Source of the DNA: Candidatus Hydrogenedentota bacterium
GTDB lineage: Bacteria > Hydrogenedentota > Hydrogenedentia > Hydrogenedentales > JAGMZX01
Length of the DNA stretch: 11,350 nt
Direction: 5' to 3'
NCBI GenBank assembly: GCA_029556545.1
Contig: JAKQEQ010000160.1
Span: forward strand, 1 to 11,350
Shown in pieces: positions 369 to 11,350 of the stretch (position 1 is the stretch's first letter; each line of letters begins with the position of its first letter). The position numbers and the translations under genes were made by a program. The notes beneath the pieces were generated by a model. That model saw only the letters and a list, made by a program, of their open reading frames with translations. It ran no database searches and had not been told where the DNA came from.

Positions 369-1924
369 AGTTCCTCCCCCCCACCCTCCTCCGCGGCCCA
401 AGGCCCGCCCATGAGGTACTCCAACTCCGCCGCGCCCAAGTGCCGGTCCCGAGCCGCGCGAACCTGCTCCAATTCAAAATCGAGCAGCGTCTGCACCGCG
501 CCGAGCACGTCGAGAAACTCCGCCCCCGCGCTCCCCGGCGCGAAAGCGACGGCGTATCGGTCCTGGAGGCTCTCGAAGGCCTGGCGCGCCTGCGGCGTCA
601 GCGTTTCCTCGTACAGGCGGTATCTGCGTTCGGCATCCTCGATGCGAAACAGCGCCATGCGAGCCGCCGCCTCCAATTCCAGCGCGCGCCGCTCCTTCTC
701 GTAACCAACGGCTTCCTCCAGCAACCGCGCCTCCGCGACCCCGGCCCGCACGCGCTTCCGCCAGATCGGCACATTCACGCCCAGCGACACCATGATCGAG
801 TCTTCCCGATCCTTGAATTCCGGCATGCCGCCGCCGCTGGGCTGGACCGTCGGCATGCCCGTCCCTCCCATGCCGCCCGTCAGCGAACTCATGCCGGCAT
901 ACGACCCGCCGCCGTCGCTCTCGCGCATCTCCTTCCCCTTCGCGAACACGTATTCAACCCCGAGAGTGAAATCGGGCCGCCCCTTTTTCCGCGCCAACTC
1001 CCCTTGCAGCCTGCGGCTCTCGATCATATGCGTATAAGCGGCCAAGTCCGGGTTCGCAACGCGCACCCGCGCCAACACTATGGCCGCGGGCGGCGCCGAC
1101 GGCGCGAATTCCGCCGGCGACGGCCACGGTCGCTCCTCGAACACCGGACGCCCCAGCGCCTCGTTAAGCGAGGCCATAAGCGCCGGACGCATCTGCTGCA
1201 ATTCCGCGTAGCGGTCGTCCAGCTTCGCCTTCTCGATCGACACACGCAGCAGTTCGTCGTCGTTCGCGAGCCCCAGCGCAAGCTTCACGCGGACAATGTC
1301 CTCCATGTACCCGATCACCTCGGCCTGCGACTCCGTAACCCGAAGGTTTTCGGCGAGAAACGCGTACTCGAAATACGCCTGCTTCACCGCCGCAATCACC
1401 CGGTTGCGCGCGTCATAAAACCGCGCGATCGCCGCGTCCGCCTCCGCCGCCGCCTGAGCGCCTTGCGTCCGAAGCGTGCCGAACCACGGGAACCGCTGCG
1501 ACAGCATGACGCGCGCGCGCTCCATTTCCGACTGAAACACCTGCGTATAACTCAGCATCGGGTCATCGAGCGAAGTCGCCTGCGGAATCCGTTCGAGTCC
1601 CGCGAGCCACTCCGCATGAAGCGCCCGGAGACCCGGGTGCCGCTCCGCCGCCTCCATCAGGCACGCGTGCAACTCGTCGTTGCCCGCGAAAAACGCCGGC
1701 GCATCGACAGGCAACGCGGCCTCTCCCGCGGCCACCGCCGACATCAATAACGCAATAGCAGGCATGATTTGCATACCTATGAACGCGACGCGGATTCGGA
1801 CTGCGCAAGCTTGCTTGCGCTCTCGTTCCGGGCAGCTTGCTGCCCGGGAGACTTCGGACGGCGCCGCGTCGCCTGCGCTTTCGTTCCGTATCCGCATCGG
1901 ACCGCCGGTCCGGGTCATTGTCAT
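353..1924 (-). CDS. cusC: CusC/TolC-type outer membrane efflux factor
   Basis: This is an outer membrane channel that completes the tripartite metal pump. Two OEP-type coiled-coil halves are visible, about residues 90-270 and 280-505. Family-like signatures are D-D-P-M-L-S-Y (120-126) and R-F-P-W-F-G-T-L (144-151) in half one, and S-L-G-V-N-V-P-I-W (380-388) in half two. A Gly/Met-rich insert at 338-367 is unusual and might touch metal. The signal-peptide core is at 51-68 (M-Q-I-M-P-A-I-A-L-L to A-G-E-A). The start is uncertain. ATG 1924 overlaps the cusA stop as ATGA and has AAGGGAG seven bases upstream, the same spacing as its neighbours; it gives 523 residues, but 38 come from an inserted repeat. 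ATG 1774 gives 473 residues, nearer the usual length, with a poor ribosome binding site. The protein family is secure; the start is about even odds. Confidence 0.85.
   Translation of the reverse strand: MTMTRTGGPMRIRNESAGDAAPSEVSRAASCPERERKQACAVRIRVAFIGMQIMPAIALLMSAVAAGEAALPVDAPAFFAGNDELHACLMEAAERHPGLRALHAEWLAGLERIPQATSLDDPMLSYTQVFQSEMERARVMLSQRFPWFGTLRTQGAQAAAEADAAIARFYDARNRVIAAVKQAYFEYAFLAENLRVTESQAEVIGYMEDIVRVKLALGLANDDELLRVSIEKAKLDDRYAELQQMRPALMASLNEALGRPVFEERPWPSPAEFAPSAPPAAIVLARVRVANPDLAAYTHMIESRRLQGELARKKGRPDFTLGVEYVFAKGKEMRESDGGGSYAGMSSLTGGMGGTGMPTVQPSGGGMPEFKDREDSIMVSLGVNVPIWRKRVRAGVAEARLLEEAVGYEKERRALELEAAARMALFRIEDAERRYRLYEETLTPQARQAFESLQDRYAVAFAPGSAGAEFLDVLGAVQTLLDFELEQVRAARDRHLGAAELEYLMGGPWAAEEGGGEELESSG
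1786..1899. mobile_element. 114-bp MITE-like twin-hairpin element
   Basis: The ends form imperfect inverted repeats, 1786-1801 against 1884-1899 (13 of 16 bases pair). Inside are two strong hairpins: 1803-1810 with 1813-1820 (8-bp stem, tt loop) and 1828-1835 with 1840-1847 (8-bp stem, cttg loop). The core structure recurs at 10530-10571. The length is 38 codons with no stop in the outer membrane factor frame, so that frame reads through it. No transposase is present, and I could not identify a target duplication. It could be a REP/BIME-type element rather than a true MITE. Confidence 0.65.
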
Positions 1925-4900
1925 GGCGCGTCTCCCTTCGGGCCGCCAATCGCGCCCGCACGGAATTGTACCTCTTTTATCCAGCAGTATAACACCGGAA
2001 CCAGAAACAGCGTGATCAACTCGATGGTCATACCGCCGAACGATGGAATCGCCATCGGCACCATAATATCCGAGCCGCGGCCCGTCGAGGTAAGCACCGA
2101 CAACAAGGCAAGCACCGTCGTCGCGGTCGTCATCAGGCAGGGCCGGATGCGGCGCAGCCCCGCCTCGAGCGTCGCCTCCCGGATTTCCCGGATCGATCCC
2201 ACGCGCCGCTTCGCGAAACTCTGGTCGAGATACGTCGCTATCACCACCCCGTCGTCCGTCGCCACCCCGAACAGCGCGAGAAACCCGACCCAGATCGCCA
2301 CGCTCAGGTTGATCGCGTGCACCTGGAACAACTCGCGCAGGTTGACCCCGGACAGACTGAAATCGAGGAACCACGGCTGTGCGTAGAGCCACATCAGCAG
2401 GAAGCCGCCCGAGGCCGCTACGGCCAGCCCCGCCCACACCAACAGCGTCGTCACATACGAACTGAACTGAAAATAAAGTATCAGGAAGATGATGAACAGC
2501 GCCAGCGGGATCACGATCGACAGCGTCTTCTGCGCGCGAACCTGATTCTCATAGTTTCCTGCGAACGTGTAACTTACCCCTGCGGGTAGCGCCCACGCCC
2601 CAGACGCCAGTTGCTGATCGAGATACTCCCGGCAACGCTCCACCACGTCCACTTCCGTCTGTCCCGCCTCCTTGTCGAACAACACGTAGCCGACCAGGAA
2701 CGTGTCCTCGCTCTTGATGGCCATCGGCCCCCGCACGTACCGAATTTCCGCAAGTTGCACCAGCGGTATCTGCGCCCCGTCCGCCGACGGCACAAGTATC
2801 CGGCCCAGCGTCTCGATCTGATCGCGCAACTCGCGCAGGTAACGCACCCGCACCGGGTACCGCTCGCGGCCCTCCACCGTCGTCGTGATCCGCATCCCGC
2901 CGATCGCCGTCTCGATCACGTCCTGCACGTCACGCACGCGCAGCCCGTAACGCCCGATCGCCTCCCGGTCGATGTCTATCTCCAGGTACGGACTCCCCAC
3001 GATCCGGTCCGCGATCACCGTAGCCGACGCGACACCCGGCACTTCCTTCAGCAGCCCCTCGATCGCGATCCCGACCCGCTCGATAGTCTCCAGATCGGGT
3101 CCTTTCACCTTCACCCCCATCGGCGCGCGCATGCCGCTCTGCAGCATCACGATCCGTGCCGCGATCGGCTGGAGCTGCGGCGCCGAAGTCGTCCCTGGAA
3201 TTTCCGCCGCCTTCACGATCTCGGCCCAGATATCGTCCGCACTCTTGATTTCATCCCGCCACTGACGGTAGGGCCGCCCGCGCGCATCCGGAATCAGGTT
3301 CCCGTCCGCGTCCCGCGCGTAGTCCCCGCGGACCGCGTCGTACCGGAACATGATCATCCGACCCGCGGCGTCCGTCACGTACTCCGGCTTGTAGTTGATC
3401 ACCGTCTCGATCATGCTGATCGGCGCGGGATCCAGCGGGCTTTCCGCGCGGCCGATCTTCCCAACCACCGACACCACCTCCGGGATGCCCGCGATCGCCT
3501 GGTCCTGCTTCTGGATGATGTCCAGCGCCTCGCCCACCGACGCATGCGGCATCGTCGTCGGCATGTACAGAAACGACCCCTCGTCCAGCGGCGGCATGAA
3601 CTCACGACCGAAACCCGGGAAGGCGTGCGCCAACGCCGACCACGGGCGCGACGTCCGCACCGTCTCCGCCGGAACGCCGATGCGCTCCGCCGCCACCGGA
3701 ATAAACCCGAACACGCGCGCGAAGCCAAGCCACGCGCACAACCCCATCGTCACCATGCCGCCCGTCAACGCAAGGTAGCTCAGCTTATGATCGAGGAACC
3801 ACCGCAGCAGCGGCGCGTACACCAAACGAAACACCCAGAAGACGCCAAGCAGCCCGAAGATGACCACGCACACGAAACCCAGATTCCGCGTGAGACCCTG
3901 GTCCGGGCCCAAAGGCGACCAGTGCCTCGTCAGCCACACAAGCACGAACAGCAACGCCGCGCCGTTCACCGCGTACACGCCCACACGCCGCAGCGGCGCC
4001 GGAAGCCGTGGGACCGCGTTCCGGAACCGCTTCGCCTCGATCCGCCACGTGAACAGCACGTGCGCCAGCGCCGGGATAATCGTCAGTGCGGCCACGACCG
4101 ACGCGATGAGGCAGAACGTTTTCGTGAATGCGAGCGGGCGGAACAGCTTCCCCTCGGGGCCGGTCATCGCAAACACCGGAAGGAACCCCACCACGGTCGT
4201 CGACACCGCGGTCACCACCGCCCCGCCGACCTCGCTCGACGCGCGAAACACGACCCGAAGCCGGTCTTCCTTCGGATCCGCCTCGTCGAGATGTTTGAGT
4301 ATATTCTCGCAAATGATAATCCCCATATCGACCATCGTCCCAATCGCAATCGCGATCCCCGACAGCGCAACGATGTTCGCGTCCACCCCGAACAGCTTCA
4401 TCGCGATGAAGCACATCAACACCGCCAGCGGCAGCACGGAACTGATCAGCAGCGAACTGCGCAGATGCATGACCATGACGATAATCACGATGACGGTGAT
4501 CAGAATCTGGCCGAAAAGCGCGTCGCTCAGCGTCCCCAGCGTCTCATAGATCAGTCCCGTCCGGTCGTAGAACGGCACTACCGCAACCTGGCTCAGCGTG
4601 ATCCAGTCCGGCCATGCCACGCGCGGCGTCCGCCGCAGCCAACCCTGCCACGTCTCCTGCTCCAATTCCGCCCCCGCGTAGGGCCTATCGATGCCCTGCG
4701 CCGCCGCGAACGCCTCCACCCCGCCCCGGTCCACTTTGTGATAGTCGACCACCGCCTTCGTCGGAAGACCGGGCGCTATCTCCGCAATGCGCGCCTTCAC
4801 GTTCTTAATCGCTTCGAGCGGATTCTCGCCGTATCGCACCACCACGACGCCGCCCACCGCCTCCGCGCCCTCTTTATCGAGGGCCCCCCGACGCATATCC

Positions 4901-5805
4901 GGACCCCGCGTGACCTTCGCCACGTCCCGCACCCGGATCGGCACGTTCTCCGAAACCTTCACCACTATCTGCTCGATGTCCTCGATACCCGCGATGAATC
5001 CAAGCCCGCGAATCATGTATTCGACGCGATTGATCTCGATATTGCGCGCCCCCACATCCACGTTCGACGCGCGCACCGCCCCGAACACGTCCTCCAGCAT
5101 CACCCCGTGCGCCCGCATCGCGTCCGGATCCACGTCGATCTGATACTCCCGCACAAACCCGCCCACCGACGCCACCTCGCTGATGCCGCCCGCGCTCAGC
5201 AACGCATAACGCACCTGCCAGTCCTGGATGCTCCGCAGTTCGTCCAGGTCCCAGCCGCCCGCGGGATTCCCGTCCGGGTCGCGTCCCTCAAGCGTGTACC
5301 AGAACACCTGCCCCAGCGCCGTCGCGTCGGGTCCGAGCGCCGGGCGCACGCCCTCGGGAAGGCTGCCCGCGGGCAGACTGCTCAGCTTCTCGAGTACGCG
5401 GCTGCGCGACCAGTAGAAGTCGATCTCCTCCTCGAAGATGATGAATATCGTTGAGAACCCGAAATACGAGTAACTGCGCACCGTCTTCACGCCCGGCATG
5501 CCAAGCAGCGCGGTCGTCAGCGGATACGTGATTTGATCGTCGATGTCCTGCGGAGACCGCCCTTCCCACTCCGTAAAGACGATCTGCTGATTCTCGCCGA
5601 TGTCCGGGATCGCGTCTACCGCGACGGGATTCCGCGGCAGGATCGGGACATCCCAGTCGAACGGCGCCGCCATCACGCCCCACGCCGCGATGGCGATCAC
5701 CAGCAACGCCACCACCAGCTTGTTCTTCAGGCAGAAATAGATGACCTTGTCAATCAGGCTCATCGAGGCGAAATCGAGTTCGCGCAATTCCGGTTCGCTA
5801 CTCAT
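1921..5805 (-). CDS. cusA: CusA-type heavy-metal RND efflux pump
   Basis: This is a proton-driven inner membrane pump of the HME-RND family that exports Cu(I)/Ag(I) from the periplasm. The E. coli CusA metal site aligns fully: M573 in L-L-Y-M-P matches M748 here (F-L-Y-M-P), M623/E625 match M798/E800 (P-I-S-M-I-E), and M672 matches M887 (R-I-V-M-L-Q-S-G). The proton-relay motif M-V-D is kept (D493); the second acidic site is A-T-D-D-G (D1184/D1185) instead of A-A-E-F-G. It has 1294 residues against about 1047. Extra segments are a ~50-residue periplasmic stretch at about 353-403, two extra hydrophobic spans at about 610-625 and 641-663, and a polar insert at about 808-860. The start ATG 5805 overlaps the cusB stop by 8 bp and follows GGGGGAG with 7-base spacing; an in-frame ATG at 5826 lacks such a site. 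Cu/Ag substrate is strongly supported; the exact metal is inferred. Confidence 0.95.
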   Translation of the reverse strand: MSSEPELRELDFASMSLIDKVIYFCLKNKLVVALLVIAIAAWGVMAAPFDWDVPILPRNPVAVDAIPDIGENQQIVFTEWEGRSPQDIDDQITYPLTTALLGMPGVKTVRSYSYFGFSTIFIIFEEEIDFYWSRSRVLEKLSSLPAGSLPEGVRPALGPDATALGQVFWYTLEGRDPDGNPAGGWDLDELRSIQDWQVRYALLSAGGISEVASVGGFVREYQIDVDPDAMRAHGVMLEDVFGAVRASNVDVGARNIEINRVEYMIRGLGFIAGIEDIEQIVVKVSENVPIRVRDVAKVTRGPDMRRGALDKEGAEAVGGVVVVRYGENPLEAIKNVKARIAEIAPGLPTKAVVDYHKVDRGGVEAFAAAQGIDRPYAGAELEQETWQGWLRRTPRVAWPDWITLSQVAVVPFYDRTGLIYETLGTLSDALFGQILITVIVIIVMVMHLRSSLLISSVLPLAVLMCFIAMKLFGVDANIVALSGIAIAIGTMVDMGIIICENILKHLDEADPKEDRLRVVFRASSEVGGAVVTAVSTTVVGFLPVFAMTGPEGKLFRPLAFTKTFCLIASVVAALTIIPALAHVLFTWRIEAKRFRNAVPRLPAPLRRVGVYAVNGAALLFVLVWLTRHWSPLGPDQGLTRNLGFVCVVIFGLLGVFWVFRLVYAPLLRWFLDHKLSYLALTGGMVTMGLCAWLGFARVFGFIPVAAERIGVPAETVRTSRPWSALAHAFPGFGREFMPPLDEGSFLYMPTTMPHASVGEALDIIQKQDQAIAGIPEVVSVVGKIGRAESPLDPAPISMIETVINYKPEYVTDAAGRMIMFRYDAVRGDYARDADGNLIPDARGRPYRQWRDEIKSADDIWAEIVKAAEIPGTTSAPQLQPIAARIVMLQSGMRAPMGVKVKGPDLETIERVGIAIEGLLKEVPGVASATVIADRIVGSPYLEIDIDREAIGRYGLRVRDVQDVIETAIGGMRITTTVEGRERYPVRVRYLRELRDQIETLGRILVPSADGAQIPLVQLAEIRYVRGPMAIKSEDTFLVGYVLFDKEAGQTEVDVVERCREYLDQQLASGAWALPAGVSYTFAGNYENQVRAQKTLSIVIPLALFIIFLILYFQFSSYVTTLLVWAGLAVAASGGFLLMWLYAQPWFLDFSLSGVNLRELFQVHAINLSVAIWVGFLALFGVATDDGVVIATYLDQSFAKRRVGSIREIREATLEAGLRRIRPCLMTTATTVLALLSVLTSTGRGSDIMVPMAIPSFGGMTIELITLFLVPVLYCWIKEVQFRAGAIGGPKGDAP

Positions 5806-7804
5806 GGCGCCGCTCCCCCGTGTCATCGACGATCGACCGCGTCACCGCGCCGCACTGCAGCATCGACGCGCCGAAATACGGATTGCGCACCGCCCTGTCC
5901 GACTGAAGCCAGTCCGCACCCGCTTTATCGAACGCCATCGGGCAGTGCGTCACGTGAATCGCGGCGTCCCCCGCCACACCGAACTGCTCAAGGGCCTGGA
6001 TCAGCACCGTGGAAAGCGGCGCAAACGCTGCCCGCTGTTTCCCGATGTCGTGGCCCGCCCCCTTGATTGCGTCGAGGGCCGTCTCGATCGCCGCGCGCCG
6101 ACCCTCCCATTCCGTCCTCGCGTCGCCCTCGATCAACGCCCCGTCAACCTCGCCAAGGGCATCCCGCAGCGCCGGTATCCCCTCCGCCGCCGCGTGGCCA
6201 TCGTCGTTCGCCAGCGCAACCCAAACCGCGTAATACGCTTCCACAAGCCCCCGCAACTGCCCGCGGAAGGCATCCAGCGCGTCCATTCGCGCCGGCGCCG
6301 GCGCCGCTTCCTCCGACGGCGCGCCGTCCGCCTCCGGTTGCATCATGCTCGGCTTCGCCAGAATCTGGAGCGCACTGTCGATCTTGAAGTTGCCGTTCGT
6401 CACGACGATCTCGCCCTCCGCCAAGCCGCTCTCGACGAGATAGAAGTCCCGCGCGCGAGGCCCCAGCACCACATCCCGCCCCTCGAATGTCGGTTTCTCC
6501 GCCCCGGAAACCTCCACGTAAACCACCGCCCGCTTCCCCGTGATCAGCGGCGCGGACGCCGGAATCACGATCGGCATATCCTCGTCTCGGGCCGTTGCCG
6601 ATACGTAGCCGAGTTCCTCAGCACGCACCAGCGGCATCCCGCATACGTCGCACGCGCCCGGCCCGTCCTTGATAACCTCCGGGTGCATCGGCGAAATCCA
6701 CTTCCCCGAAAGACCGGGATCCATCACGCGCCCGCGCGTCGCCACGTTCGCGCGCACCACCGCCCGTACGAACATCCCGGGCCGCAACCGCCCGTCCGGG
6801 TTGTCCGCGTTCACCCGCACCTTCACCGTCCGCGTCGCCGTATTCAGGAACGGCTCGATAAACGCGATGCGCCCCGCGAAGGTCTCCCCCGGATACGCCT
6901 CCGTCGTGATCTCAACCGTCTGCCCGTAGTGAATCCACGGCATATCCGACTCATAGGCATCGAGCTTCACCCACACCACGCTCAAATCCGCGATGGTGTA
7001 CAGCGGCGTGCCCGTCTCCACGTACATCCCCTCGCGGCCGCTCCGCTCCACCACCGTCCCGCTCATCGGCGCGTAAATCGTGATCCGGTCTCCAAACTTG
7101 CCCGATCGCTCCGCCGCAGCGATCTGTTGCTCTGTCATTCCCCAGCGCCGCAGCTTGTTGCGAACCGCCTCGATCATCCCCTCCGCCGCCTCCCGCAATA
7201 CCGCCGGCGCGCCCGCAGGCACCCGAGCCAGCGCTTCCTTCGCCCGCAGCAATTCCTCCTTCGCCGTCAGCAGTTCCGGACTGTACAGGTCGACCATGTG
7301 CTCGCCCTGTTTCACCACGACGCCCGTGTAGTCCGCGTACATCCGCTCGATCCGGCCCGGCGTCCACGCCGCAATGTAGCCCAGCCGCGTCTCGTCGTAC
7401 TCGATCTTCCCCACCATCCGCACCTCCGCCGTCACGAATCGACGCTCCACCCGCGCGGTCGCGATGTCCATGAGCGCCTTTGCCGATTCGCTCGTCACAA
7501 ACGTCCGCGGCCCCGCGTCCTCTTGCCCCCCCGTCTCCACCGGGATCAGGTCCATGCCGCACAGCGGACACAACCCCGGCCCTGGCTGCCGTATCTGCGG
7601 GTGCATCGAGCAGGTGTACGTCTGCGCCTGTTTCGGCGCGGCCGTCGCGGGCGCGTGTTCCGGCGCGTGCGGGTGCGACGGCCCAATCCAGCCACGCATC
7701 GCGTAACCCGCCACGATCCCCAAAATCAGTATGCCGGCCGCGCCCAGCCGAAGAAGCCATCGGCCCAATCGCCGGCGCCGCGGCGCGTCACGTTCGCTTG
7801 CCAT
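5798..7804 (-). CDS. cusB: CusB-type periplasmic adaptor with two metal-binding modules and C-terminal DUF3347-like domain
   Basis: This membrane-fusion protein links the RND pump to the outer membrane channel and hands over metal. It has 668 residues against about 400 for E. coli CusB. Order: basic N-terminus and one membrane segment (about 15-36); a heavy-metal-binding module Y-T-C-S-M-H-P...C-P-L-C-G-M-D-L (63-89; C65, C79, C82); barrel-sandwich and hairpin region (about 140-260); beta-barrel (about 265-350); a second, degraded module W-I-S-P-M-H-P...C-D-V-C-G-M (369-392) in which the first Cys is Ser; membrane-proximal domain (about 400-485); and a DUF3347-like tail (about 505-658) with H-C-P-M-A (620-624), N-P-Y-F-G-A-S-M-L (641-649) and C651. 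Start ATG 7804 has AGGAG nine bases upstream. The tail may replace a separate CusF-like chaperone; that role is inferred. Confidence 0.93.
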   Translation of the reverse strand: MASERDAPRRRRLGRWLLRLGAAGILILGIVAGYAMRGWIGPSHPHAPEHAPATAAPKQAQTYTCSMHPQIRQPGPGLCPLCGMDLIPVETGGQEDAGPRTFVTSESAKALMDIATARVERRFVTAEVRMVGKIEYDETRLGYIAAWTPGRIERMYADYTGVVVKQGEHMVDLYSPELLTAKEELLRAKEALARVPAGAPAVLREAAEGMIEAVRNKLRRWGMTEQQIAAAERSGKFGDRITIYAPMSGTVVERSGREGMYVETGTPLYTIADLSVVWVKLDAYESDMPWIHYGQTVEITTEAYPGETFAGRIAFIEPFLNTATRTVKVRVNADNPDGRLRPGMFVRAVVRANVATRGRVMDPGLSGKWISPMHPEVIKDGPGACDVCGMPLVRAEELGYVSATARDEDMPIVIPASAPLITGKRAVVYVEVSGAEKPTFEGRDVVLGPRARDFYLVESGLAEGEIVVTNGNFKIDSALQILAKPSMMQPEADGAPSEEAAPAPARMDALDAFRGQLRGLVEAYYAVWVALANDDGHAAAEGIPALRDALGEVDGALIEGDARTEWEGRRAAIETALDAIKGAGHDIGKQRAAFAPLSTVLIQALEQFGVAGDAAIHVTHCPMAFDKAGADWLQSDRAVRNPYFGASMLQCGAVTRSIVDDTGERRHE
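5813..5819 (-). promoter_or_regulatory. Ribosome binding site that fixes the cusA start
   Basis: On the minus strand this reads GGGGGAG, seven bases before ATG 5805, and it lies inside the end of cusB. It favours this start over the in-frame ATG 21 bases upstream and implies translational coupling. Confidence 0.75.
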
Positions 7805-7869: not shown

Positions 7870-7899
7870 CGTAGGGGCGAGGCCTGCCCCGCCCCTACG
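7870..7899. repeat. REP-like hairpin between cusB and the triple-repeat gene
   Basis: A perfect 10-bp stem, cgtaggggcg at 7870-7879 with cgcccctacg at 7890-7899, closes a 10-base loop. It sits in the 108-bp gap after the stop of the upstream gene and about 66 bases before the cusB start on the minus strand. No T run follows, so a rho-independent terminator is unlikely. A REP element or an mRNA-stabilising or processing hairpin fits better. Confidence 0.75.
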
Positions 7900-7912: not shown

Positions 7913-8575
7913 TTATTGCGCGCGTCGCGCTTCATCCAATTTGGACAGGTACTTCATCGGGTCCTTCTCGAGGTCCCGAATGCACCCCTTGCAACAGAGA
8001 CGCACCAGACGATTCGCCACGACGTGGTCCACGGGCTCGCCCATGCTCCCGCCGAGCTGCTCGCCCGATACCACACAGGTGTCGAGAGGATAGTCCGCCT
8101 GCTGCTTCTCTACCACCGCGCCGTCCAATTTCGCAAGGAACTTGCCCGGCTCCTTCTCGAACTTGGGCACGCAGCCCGCGCAGCAGAAGCGCACTAGCCG
8201 GTTCTTGAATACGTGATCGACCGGCTCGCCCATCGAGCCAAGTTTCTCGCCGCTCACCACGCACGTCTCAAGCGGGTAAGACGCGCGCTGAAGCGCGACC
8301 ACTTCGGCGTCGATCTTGGCGAAGTACTGGGCTTGGTCCGCGTCGAACTTCCCGATGCACCCCGCGCAACAGAAGCGCACCTCGCGCCCGTCGTACTGCC
8401 GCACGACCGGCTCGCCCATCGACCCCAGTAGCCCGCCCGACACCGGGCACGTCGGCAGAACGTAGGGATCGCCCGATCCAGATACTGCGTAAACTACTGA
8501 AAACCCGACAACGGCTACCGCCGTCGCCGCCGCAACCGAAAGAATCGACATTGTGAGTTTGTGTATTTTTGACAT
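7913..8575 (-). CDS. Exported protein with three YHS/TRASH-like CC-x2-C metal-binding repeats
   Basis: This is a 220-residue protein with an N-terminal export or anchor segment (basic start, hydrophobic 10-30, possible cleavage after V-Y-A) and three tandem repeats of 62-residue period. Each repeat has C-x-V-S-G, then L-G-(G)-S-M-G-E-P-V, an R-x-V-R strand, C-C-x-G-C, and a short helix ending in K-(I/L)-D. Cysteines are C43/C69/C70/C73, C105/C131/C132/C135 and C167/C194/C195/C198; the third repeat has one extra Gly. The arrangement recalls YHS/TRASH metal-binding domains. It lies directly upstream of cusB, so periplasmic Cu(I) or Ag(I) binding or sensing is the likely job; it is not experimentally assigned. 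Start ATG 8575 is fixed by AAGGAGG seven bases upstream. I know of no gene symbol for it. Confidence 0.9.
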   Translation of the reverse strand: MSKIHKLTMSILSVAAATAVAVVGFSVVYAVSGSGDPYVLPTCPVSGGLLGSMGEPVVRQYDGREVRFCCAGCIGKFDADQAQYFAKIDAEVVALQRASYPLETCVVSGEKLGSMGEPVDHVFKNRLVRFCCAGCVPKFEKEPGKFLAKLDGAVVEKQQADYPLDTCVVSGEQLGGSMGEPVDHVVANRLVRLCCKGCIRDLEKDPMKYLSKLDEARRAQ

Positions 8576-8582
8576 GGTATTG

Positions 8583-8589
8583 CCTCCTT
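8583..8589 (-). promoter_or_regulatory. Strong ribosome binding site for the triple-repeat gene
   Basis: This reads AAGGAGG on the minus strand, seven bases before ATG 8575. It is the most consensus-like site in the window and suggests that this binding protein is made at a high rate. Confidence 0.8.
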
Positions 8590-8627
8590 TTGTGGCTGTT
8601 TGTGTGTGTTTGTGTTGACGCCTGGTC

Positions 8628-8712
8628 CGTAGTCCAGCCTTCAGGCTGCCGGTTCGAGCCCGTTCGTAGTTCAGCTTTCAGCCTGCCGGTTCGTAGTCCA
8701 GCCTTCAGGCTG
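8628..8712. repeat. Three copies of a palindromic repeat in the leader of the triple-repeat gene
   Basis: Units starting cgtag(t/c) occur at 8628-8656, 8665-8693 and 8692-8712. Units 1 and 3 contain the near-palindrome cagccttcaggctg (5-bp stem, ttca loop). Unit 2 is diverged in the stem. They fill most of the 155-bp gap between the Cys-rich gene and the triple-repeat gene. They look like REP-type extragenic elements. Any effect on transcription is unknown. Confidence 0.75.
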
Positions 8713-8730: not shown

Positions 8731-9201
8731 CTACAACAGTAGCGCGCACTGAGAGAGAAAGAGAGGTCTTGAGGAAGGCAAGACGGGAGCACTTCCCGTG
8801 ATTGACGCCGACGCCGGCTCAGCCAACGCAAGAACCGCATCGACAACGCCCGGCGCAACGGGCGAGGAACCCTTTTCGGACGTACCCGCATCCGGGATCA
8901 ACCGCGCATATTCCGGCGCATCGTGTCGGCAAACGCAGCCCTGCCCGCCGTCCTGCGCCCCCCCCGGCGCCACAGCGCAACCCGATGGCAAGCCCGCCGA
9001 CTCGGGCGCTTCGGCCCCGCCGCCGCAGCAATCATGACCGCCTTCAGCGCGAGATGCCGACTCCACCGAGGCGCGCGCGCCCCGGCAGCAGCCGTGCGCG
9101 TCCGGCAGGCACGCGCACGCCCACAACGGGGCCATGACCGCAGCCGTCAGGAACACTGCGGCAAGCACCCGGCTCAGCACGCCGTTTCGGAAGCGGGTCA
9201 C
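8731..9201 (-). CDS. Small Cys-rich exported protein of the copper cluster
   Basis: This is a 156-residue protein with an N-terminal signal or anchor (M-T-R-F-R-N, hydrophobic about 9-27, then W-A-C-A-C). Ten cysteines fall in groups: C29/C31, C38/C39, C58/C59, C75, C89/C91 and C152. Gly/Ala-rich spacers separate them. The C-terminus P-L-F-L-S-Q-C-A-L-L-L resembles, from memory, the tail of short uncharacterised proteins in other metal-resistance clusters. It is the first gene of the efflux set, so envelope metal binding is the natural guess, but no named family is certain. GTG 9201 is chosen because AGGAG lies six bases upstream; a TTG at 9231 would add ten charged residues. The Cys-Cys pairs would suit Cu(I). 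W at -2 makes a lipobox doubtful. Confidence 0.7.
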   Translation of the reverse strand: MTRFRNGVLSRVLAAVFLTAAVMAPLWACACLPDAHGCCRGARASVESASRAEGGHDCCGGGAEAPESAGLPSGCAVAPGGAQDGGQGCVCRHDAPEYARLIPDAGTSEKGSSPVAPGVVDAVLALAEPASASITGSAPVLPSSRPLFLSQCALLL

Positions 9202-10624: not shown

Positions 10625-11350
10625 TCACGCCAGTCCTGGGCAGAAGCCGTCCTCCGTGCCCTCGTCCGGGCAGTAGTGGTAGCCAGGGAAGTTGTAGAAC
10701 TGAATCACCCGCAGCAACTCGGTCAGCGCAATCTGCCAATTCTGCGGCGCGTAGTCGCTCGCGTGCGGGCAGCAACCCTGGTCCGCGCCCGGCCCCGGCA
10801 CGTAGCCGTCCTCCGTGCTCGACGGGTCGTCCGCGCAGTGGAAACCTCCCGAGTTGTAGAACTGGATTACCCGCAGCAACTCGGTCAGTTCGATCAGGTT
10901 GTTCTGTGACTGATCCGCCGTGTGGTACTCGCTGAGGCACGGGTCGCCTTCGCCTTCGCCCTCGCCCTCGCCCTCACCCTCACCCTCACCTTCGCCTTCG
11001 CCTTCGCCTTCACCTTCGCCTTCGCCTTCACCCTCGCCTTCGCCTTCACCCTCGCCCTCACCCTCACCTTCGCCTTCGCCTTCGCCCTCACCCTCACCTT
11101 CGCCTTCGCCTTCGCCCTCGCCTTCGCCTTCGCCTTCGCCCTCGCCTTCGCCCTCAGCGCCCGATCCCGTCGAGACCACCACGTCCACCAACACCCAGCA
11201 CGAGACCTGCTGTTCCGGCAACGGCAACTGGCTGATGATCTCGCCCGCCGGAACCGTCTCGCTCGATTCCTCCGTCACTGTGCCCAGCACCAGCAGCGCC
11301 GCGTCAAGCACCGCCTCCGCCGCCTCCACCGTCAGCCCGACAAGGTCCGG
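10625..11350 (-). CDS. Surface protein: PASTA domain, Glu-Gly linker, two dockerin-like modules (N-terminus missing)
   Basis: The 241 residues in the window are the C-terminal part, and the frame is open to the right edge. Residues 1-61 are nearly a full PASTA domain: P-D-L-V-G-L-T-V-E-A-A, then L-G-T-V-T-E-E-S-S-E-T-V-P-A-G, then V-V-V-S-T-G. Residues 66-135 are 35 Glu-Gly dipeptides. Residues 136-241 hold two related modules sharing L-T-E-L-L-R-V-I-Q-F-Y-N and ending with T-E-D-G-Y-V-P-G and T-E-D-G-F-C-P-G. The first has an EF-hand-like loop D146-x-S-x-N-x-x-I-x-x-x-E157, as in dockerins; the second loop is degenerate. Extracellular location fits the PASTA domain and the rigid acidic linker. 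The tail may be a sorting, anchoring or docking device; that is inference. The N-terminal function is unknown. Confidence 0.85.
   Translation of the reverse strand, partial: PDLVGLTVEAAEAVLDAALLVLGTVTEESSETVPAGEIISQLPLPEQQVSCWVLVDVVVSTGSGAEGEGEGEGEGEGEGEGEGEGEGEGEGEGEGEGEGEGEGEGEGEGEGEGEGEGEGEGEGEGEGEGEGEGEGDPCLSEYHTADQSQNNLIELTELLRVIQFYNSGGFHCADDPSSTEDGYVPGPGADQGCCPHASDYAPQNWQIALTELLRVIQFYNFPGYHYCPDEGTEDGFCPGLA
10946..11155. repeat. 35-unit coding hexamer array
   Basis: Thirty-five uninterrupted hexamers encode Glu-Gly on the minus strand. The units vary only at third codon positions (GAA/GAG and GGC/GGT), so the protein is kept while the DNA drifts. Such arrays change length by slippage, so the copy number may vary between strains or be misassembled. 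Confidence 0.95.

Follow-up and report, generated by a model that had tools for sequence, protein, structure and literature searches.

The window, the whole 11,350-nt stretch of Candidatus Hydrogenedentota DNA analyzed here, encodes on its minus strand (7913–8575) a 220-residue, apparently exported protein composed of three tandem copies of a variant YHS/TRASH domain with a rearranged set of ligands, and genes for such proteins recur in copper operons across phyla. Judged by its sequence and setting, this triple protein most likely acts in the periplasm, either buffering Cu(I)/Ag(I) or donating it to the pump encoded alongside. The reading that we favor, with a probability of roughly 55%, is that it buffers periplasmic Cu(I)/Ag(I) and, like CusF, hands the metal to a CusCBA-type pump via CusB. 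The protein is noteworthy for being conserved, unnamed, tripartite, and exported with a changed ligand set, and its carriers include a cultivated planctomycete.

A strong Shine-Dalgarno sequence (AAAGGAGG; 8583–8590, minus strand) lies 7 nt 5′ of the ATG. Residues 1–30 (8486–8575, minus strand), read by eye, form an N-terminal signal with the hydrophobic leader MSKIHKLTMSILSVAAATAVAVVGFSVVYA and the end VVYA, and we infer that the protein is exported to the periplasm. Repeat 1 (8282–8470; C43, C69, C70, and C73), repeat 2 (8096–8281; C105, C131, C132, and C135), and repeat 3 (7916–8095; C167, C194, C195, and C198) follow on the same strand. The original prediction had described three near-identical repeats, each with four cysteines spaced C-x25/26-CC-x2-C, giving twelve thiols; the number, spacing, and total hold exactly for these ∼62-residue repeats, but their pairwise identities of 52%, 47%, and 68% show that "near-identical" was an overstatement. 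The cysteines could form disulfides in the oxidizing periplasm.

A likeness to YHS/TRASH domains had also been proposed, and it holds for the fold and for the protein as a whole, but not for single repeats when scored alone. The whole protein lies above the Pfam cutoffs of YHS (PF04945; 39 vs. 30.3 bits) and TRASH (PF08394, 29.2 vs. 27 bits; PF24273, 27.7 vs. 27 bits), whereas single repeats stay below them, the best reaching 25.6 bits. Among the homologues, 19–20 of 20 are matched by the Pfam YHS/TRASH models at E ≤ 0.01. The dual-CXXC (seleno)protein model NF041197 matches 18 of 20 at E ≤ 0.01; the triple protein reaches 20.2 bits of its 40-bit cutoff, and this identity was dropped, together with the link to selenoproteins. 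The AlphaFold model of a single repeat (pLDDT 86.5) is treble-clef-like by structure comparison; it aligns with the YHS region of toluene monooxygenase hydroxylase (3dhi, residues 393–459) with Z 6.2 over 58 residues, and more weakly with L24e-type ribosomal proteins (Z 3–3.6); NosL (7og7, Z 3.1), also in the list, was too weak to use. These Z scores are middling, but the highest-ranking hits belong to the family expected, which supports a YHS/TRASH fold for the modeled repeat. The full-length AlphaFold model, built with two alignment rows, has three domains and is weak (pTM 0.47). A sequence search of the PDB gave no clear solved relative, only a weak L24e-type match (E 0.81). L24e binds Cd via its cysteines, and a YHS domain renders an adenylyl cyclase copper-responsive, the evidence for copper binding in that case being indirect (PMC4626032).

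The repeats depart from their canonical relatives in the residues at the putative metal site. YHS domains of P-type ATPases encoded near homologues read D-P-V-C-G...F-C-S-x-x-C, whereas the repeats of the triple proteins read C-x-x-S-G...F-C-C-x-x-C, and repeat 2 matches the YHS domain of the L028 ATPase position by position over the stretch from ligand to ligand. Aligned in this way, the repeats have the Asp replaced (D0 to C), one canonical Cys lost (C3 to S/T), and a vicinal Cys gained (S27 to C). Of 174 repeats, 142 have Ser or Thr at position +3 and 3 have Cys there; the extra Cys that follows the first Cys of C-x3-C, that is, the second of the CC pair, is present in 160 of 167, and the Cys columns are 73–100% conserved, depending on repeat position and group. 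As the repeats lack the canonical ligand set D/C-x2-C...C-x3-C, the protein is filed as a variant and not as a canonical YHS/TRASH member. We know of no description of a YHS variant with rearranged ligands, and a literature search, mostly outside subscription journals, returned nothing on tandem exported YHS proteins. The vicinal pair adds a Cys that is missing from the canonical YHS domains of neighboring genes, which speaks against a role of the cysteines in holding the fold of a Zn-stabilized or disulfide-bonded structural or protein-binding module, whose partners would be envelope proteins and not copper. Such a module, which we consider distinctly unlikely, would agree with the treble-clef-like fold, with a stand-alone subclade away from metal genes (described below), and with the retention, in particular lineages, of a repeat that has lost its Cys; it agrees poorly with the finding that, in several phyla, the triple genes are enriched next to genes for copper efflux.

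In the window, the gene forms part of an efflux cluster transcribed from the minus strand in the order Cys-rich exported protein, triple protein, CusB-like adaptor, CusA-like pump, and TolC-like channel. The position directly upstream of cusB and a metal-binding module at the N-terminus of the adaptor, both anticipated from the sequence alone, are found: the gap to cusB is ∼108 nt, and the CusB-like adaptor (5798–7804, minus strand; probable ATG at 7804) has an N-terminal HMBD (heavy-metal-binding domain), two HMBDs in all, and a C-terminal DUF3347. Between the two genes lies a very stable hairpin without a T-run (7871–7898, minus strand; −35.7 kcal/mol, z −3.6); it is single-copy in the genome, which rules out a dispersed repeat, and it may tune expression of the pump genes downstream. 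The CusA-like RND pump (1921–5826) and the TolC-like outer-membrane channel (353–1990), both on the minus strand, have provisional start codons. The former scores above the TIGR00914 cutoff. The Cu(I)/Ag(I) site of E. coli CusA comprises M573, M623, and M672 in the numbering of the CusA literature; their equivalents in 3t51 bear the chain numbers 580, 630, and 679, the spacing of 50 and 49 agreeing, and in an alignment with 3k07 and 3t51 all three positions are Met in the CusA of the window (LYMP, APISMIET, and RIVML), leaving the triad intact. The site has been described as a (Met)3 ligand set (PMC6235853). That this CusA-type pump has kept the three Met residues suggests that it exports Cu(I)/Ag(I).

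The cluster opens with the small, Cys-rich exported protein (8731–9201, minus strand), which is without a Pfam or NCBIfam match. A relative with 36% identity precedes cusB in genome G001 of the same genus, and elsewhere in the phylum there was one weak match only. In G001, cusB directly follows this Cys-rich gene with no triple gene between them, and none was found elsewhere in that genome either; the pump can thus do without the triple protein, whose gene is accessory. Copies of the short repeat CAGCCTGAAGGCTGGACTAC are located just upstream of the triple gene (8629–8712, minus strand), and this repeat has 27 sites in the genome when up to one mismatch is allowed; the proximity of dispersed repeats would fit gain or loss of the gene by rearrangement. 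At 10625–11350 (minus strand), a protein that runs off the window contains a long (GE)n linker and then two LTELLRVIQFYN-type repeats.

That homologues lie by metal genes, a further expectation of the original prediction, proved true of copper-efflux operons in several phyla, but many homologues, including a whole subclade, are found away from them. Metal-efflux genes (CusA, CusB, TolC, and CopA) flank 9 of the 23 homologues with >14 kb of context, whereas 20 control stretches, drawn from eight of these genomes, had none (Fisher P = 0.0017, with kinship ignored). Neighboring genes were called by codon score; when called by the longest open reading frame, antisense frames win in high-GC DNA. 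The triple gene is often on the same strand as the efflux gene, with a 4-nt overlap or a gap of ≤40 nt, and its neighbor varies between TolC, CusA, CusB, and CopA. At L085, for example, the order on one strand is CusB, CusA, DUF305, triple protein, MerR, and CopA (with YHS and HMBD). His-rich stretches ahead of the repeats occur in the metal-linked proteins of L084, L085, L086, and L097. On the tree, the pump-linked members group together more than by chance (9 changes vs. a shuffled mean of 14.2; 0 of 500 shuffles as low), and the five nearest relatives of the window protein are all pump- or ATPase-linked.

A further relative is encoded on plasmid pPSMK1 of the cultivated planctomycete Phycisphaera mikurensis (WP_014438594.1, PSMK_RS15525), where it is annotated as "hypothetical protein". 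It is 43.6% identical to the window protein over most of its length and likewise has three repeats, but differs in that repeat 1 is devoid of Cys. Its gene overlaps that of TolC in a copper cluster that goes on through CusB and CusA to a multicopper oxidase and CopB; other genes in the vicinity specify a four-helix copper-binding protein as well as a metal-sensitive regulator.

An 18-member subclade (support 92/93) includes no efflux-linked member, nine of the 18 having short flanks and many branches of the tree being weak, and the role of the family is therefore not always tied to a pump. Both pump-linked and stand-alone copies are carried by G026, G034, and G052. A Pfam scan of the neighbors revealed no recurrent partner besides efflux genes and, for stand-alone copies, SpoU methylase. 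A gene for a SpoU-type rRNA methylase lies directly upstream of the triple gene at L037, L038, L039, L050, and L054 and downstream on the opposite strand at L032, and all six loci are without efflux genes. The coexistence of the widespread stand-alone subclade with pump-linked copies in the three genomes, and the multicopper oxidase that follows in the pPSMK1 cluster, would be compatible with a protein that delivers copper to cuproenzymes or to a copper sensor rather than to the efflux pump, the stand-alone subclade being a general carrier and the pump-linked branch a specialized form. This we regard as very improbable; the stand-alone copies are without a consistent cuproenzyme neighbor, and their commonest neighbor family is the SpoU methylase.

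Within the phylum, 42 of 68 genomes have a match to the triple protein at E ≤ 1e-3, the weakest of these being other YHS proteins, and 39 of 68 at E ≤ 1e-30. Relatives are also present in two further phyla and in the Planctomycetota, and a Verrucomicrobiaceae MAG encodes one with a single domain; a search of IMG/VR gave no relative. The single-domain protein (L021) was the only relative returned by a strict contig scan, in which a single sequence was searched by exact peptide patterns. Encoded by a lipoprotein-like gene 27 nt from CusA, it shares the domain with its motifs YPLDVCLVSGEKLG and FCCKSC but differs from the triple protein in having only one repeat and the lipobox LVSC.

The count of tandem copies across genomes that the original prediction had called for gave exactly three repeats in 55 of the 62 loci examined. 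The best match of a repeat in another locus was the repeat at the same position in 152 of 165 cases; together with the fixed number of three, this indicates that the triplication is old and has been kept. The cysteines of one given repeat have been lost, with the repeat itself kept, at L044 and L045 (repeat 2), at L043, L046, and L053 (repeat 3), and at L103 (repeat 1), and such lineage-specific loss from one repeat suggests distinct roles for the individual repeats. Folded YHS units, exactly three in number and with position-specific sequences, are unlike a simple chelating tail, and this, together with the tight operon coupling and the 4-nt overlaps at some loci, argues against a pure sponge, in which metallothionein-like sequestration of periplasmic Cu(I)/Ag(I) would take place with no transfer to CusB and the operon would combine two separate defenses. 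We judge a pure sponge unlikely, even though twelve thiols in one protein and the His-rich stretches of several relatives would suit it, as would an accessory gene that is missing beside cusB in G001 and whose position in the operon varies among TolC, CusA, CusB, and CopA.

The reading we prefer, that of a buffer that passes its metal on to the pump, can be laid out as follows. The three covalently linked variant YHS/TRASH domains would bind a soft metal, most likely Cu(I)/Ag(I), each at a vicinal-cysteine cluster formed by C1 plus CC-x2-C. The protein would thereby buffer copper in the periplasm, and the copper would pass to the adjoining CusCBA-type pump, probably via the N-terminal HMBD of CusB. 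We infer the metal binding, the oxidation state, the stoichiometry, and the transfer to CusB alike. In this role the triple protein would be the counterpart of CusF of E. coli, for which it is a candidate functional stand-in. Counting against this reading are the subclade with no efflux-linked member, the G001 pump that lacks a triple gene, the members in which a repeat has lost its cysteines, and the chance of disulfide formation in the oxidizing periplasm.

The distribution of CusF is consistent with this proposal: CusF_Ec (PF11604) was detected in 0 of the 68 genomes of the phylum, that of the window included, whereas the same search was positive in E. coli and Caulobacter. Close relatives of the CusB of the window (E ≤ 1e-120) are encoded in 21 genomes, 18 of which also encode a triple protein, compared with 21 of the 47 genomes without a close CusB relative (Fisher P = 0.0016, with kinship ignored). 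The phylum thus has CusBA-type pumps without a detectable CusF, and the triple protein is a testable candidate for the copper carrier. A broader proposal, which we put forward tentatively and at clearly less than even odds, is that an undescribed family of periplasmic chaperones for Cu(I)/Ag(I), tripartite and based on the YHS/TRASH fold with its rearranged vicinal-cysteine site, replaces CusF in several phyla and feeds HMBD-type CusBA pumps.

In the E. coli CusCBAF system, CusF serves as the periplasmic chaperone for Cu(I)/Ag(I), and the triple protein resembles it in being a small exported protein, encoded with a CusCBA pump and proposed as a donor to the adaptor. There is no sequence match between the two, the triple protein giving no hit to PF11604, and CusF binds its metal via Met (M47 and M49), not Cys (PMC6235853). 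Closer in domain type is the archaeal CopM, found in copper clusters, whose TRASH-type domain has been proposed to carry copper (PMC7830388). With YHS (PF04945) and TRASH (PF08394 and PF24273) domains in general, the triple protein shares the fold and the spacing of positions 0, 3, 26, and 30, but has three tandem copies in one exported chain, which would extend these domains to tandem periplasmic use with different possible ligands. CopM is cytoplasmic and single-domain and serves a P-type ATPase; the triple protein differs from it in being exported and in having three domains.
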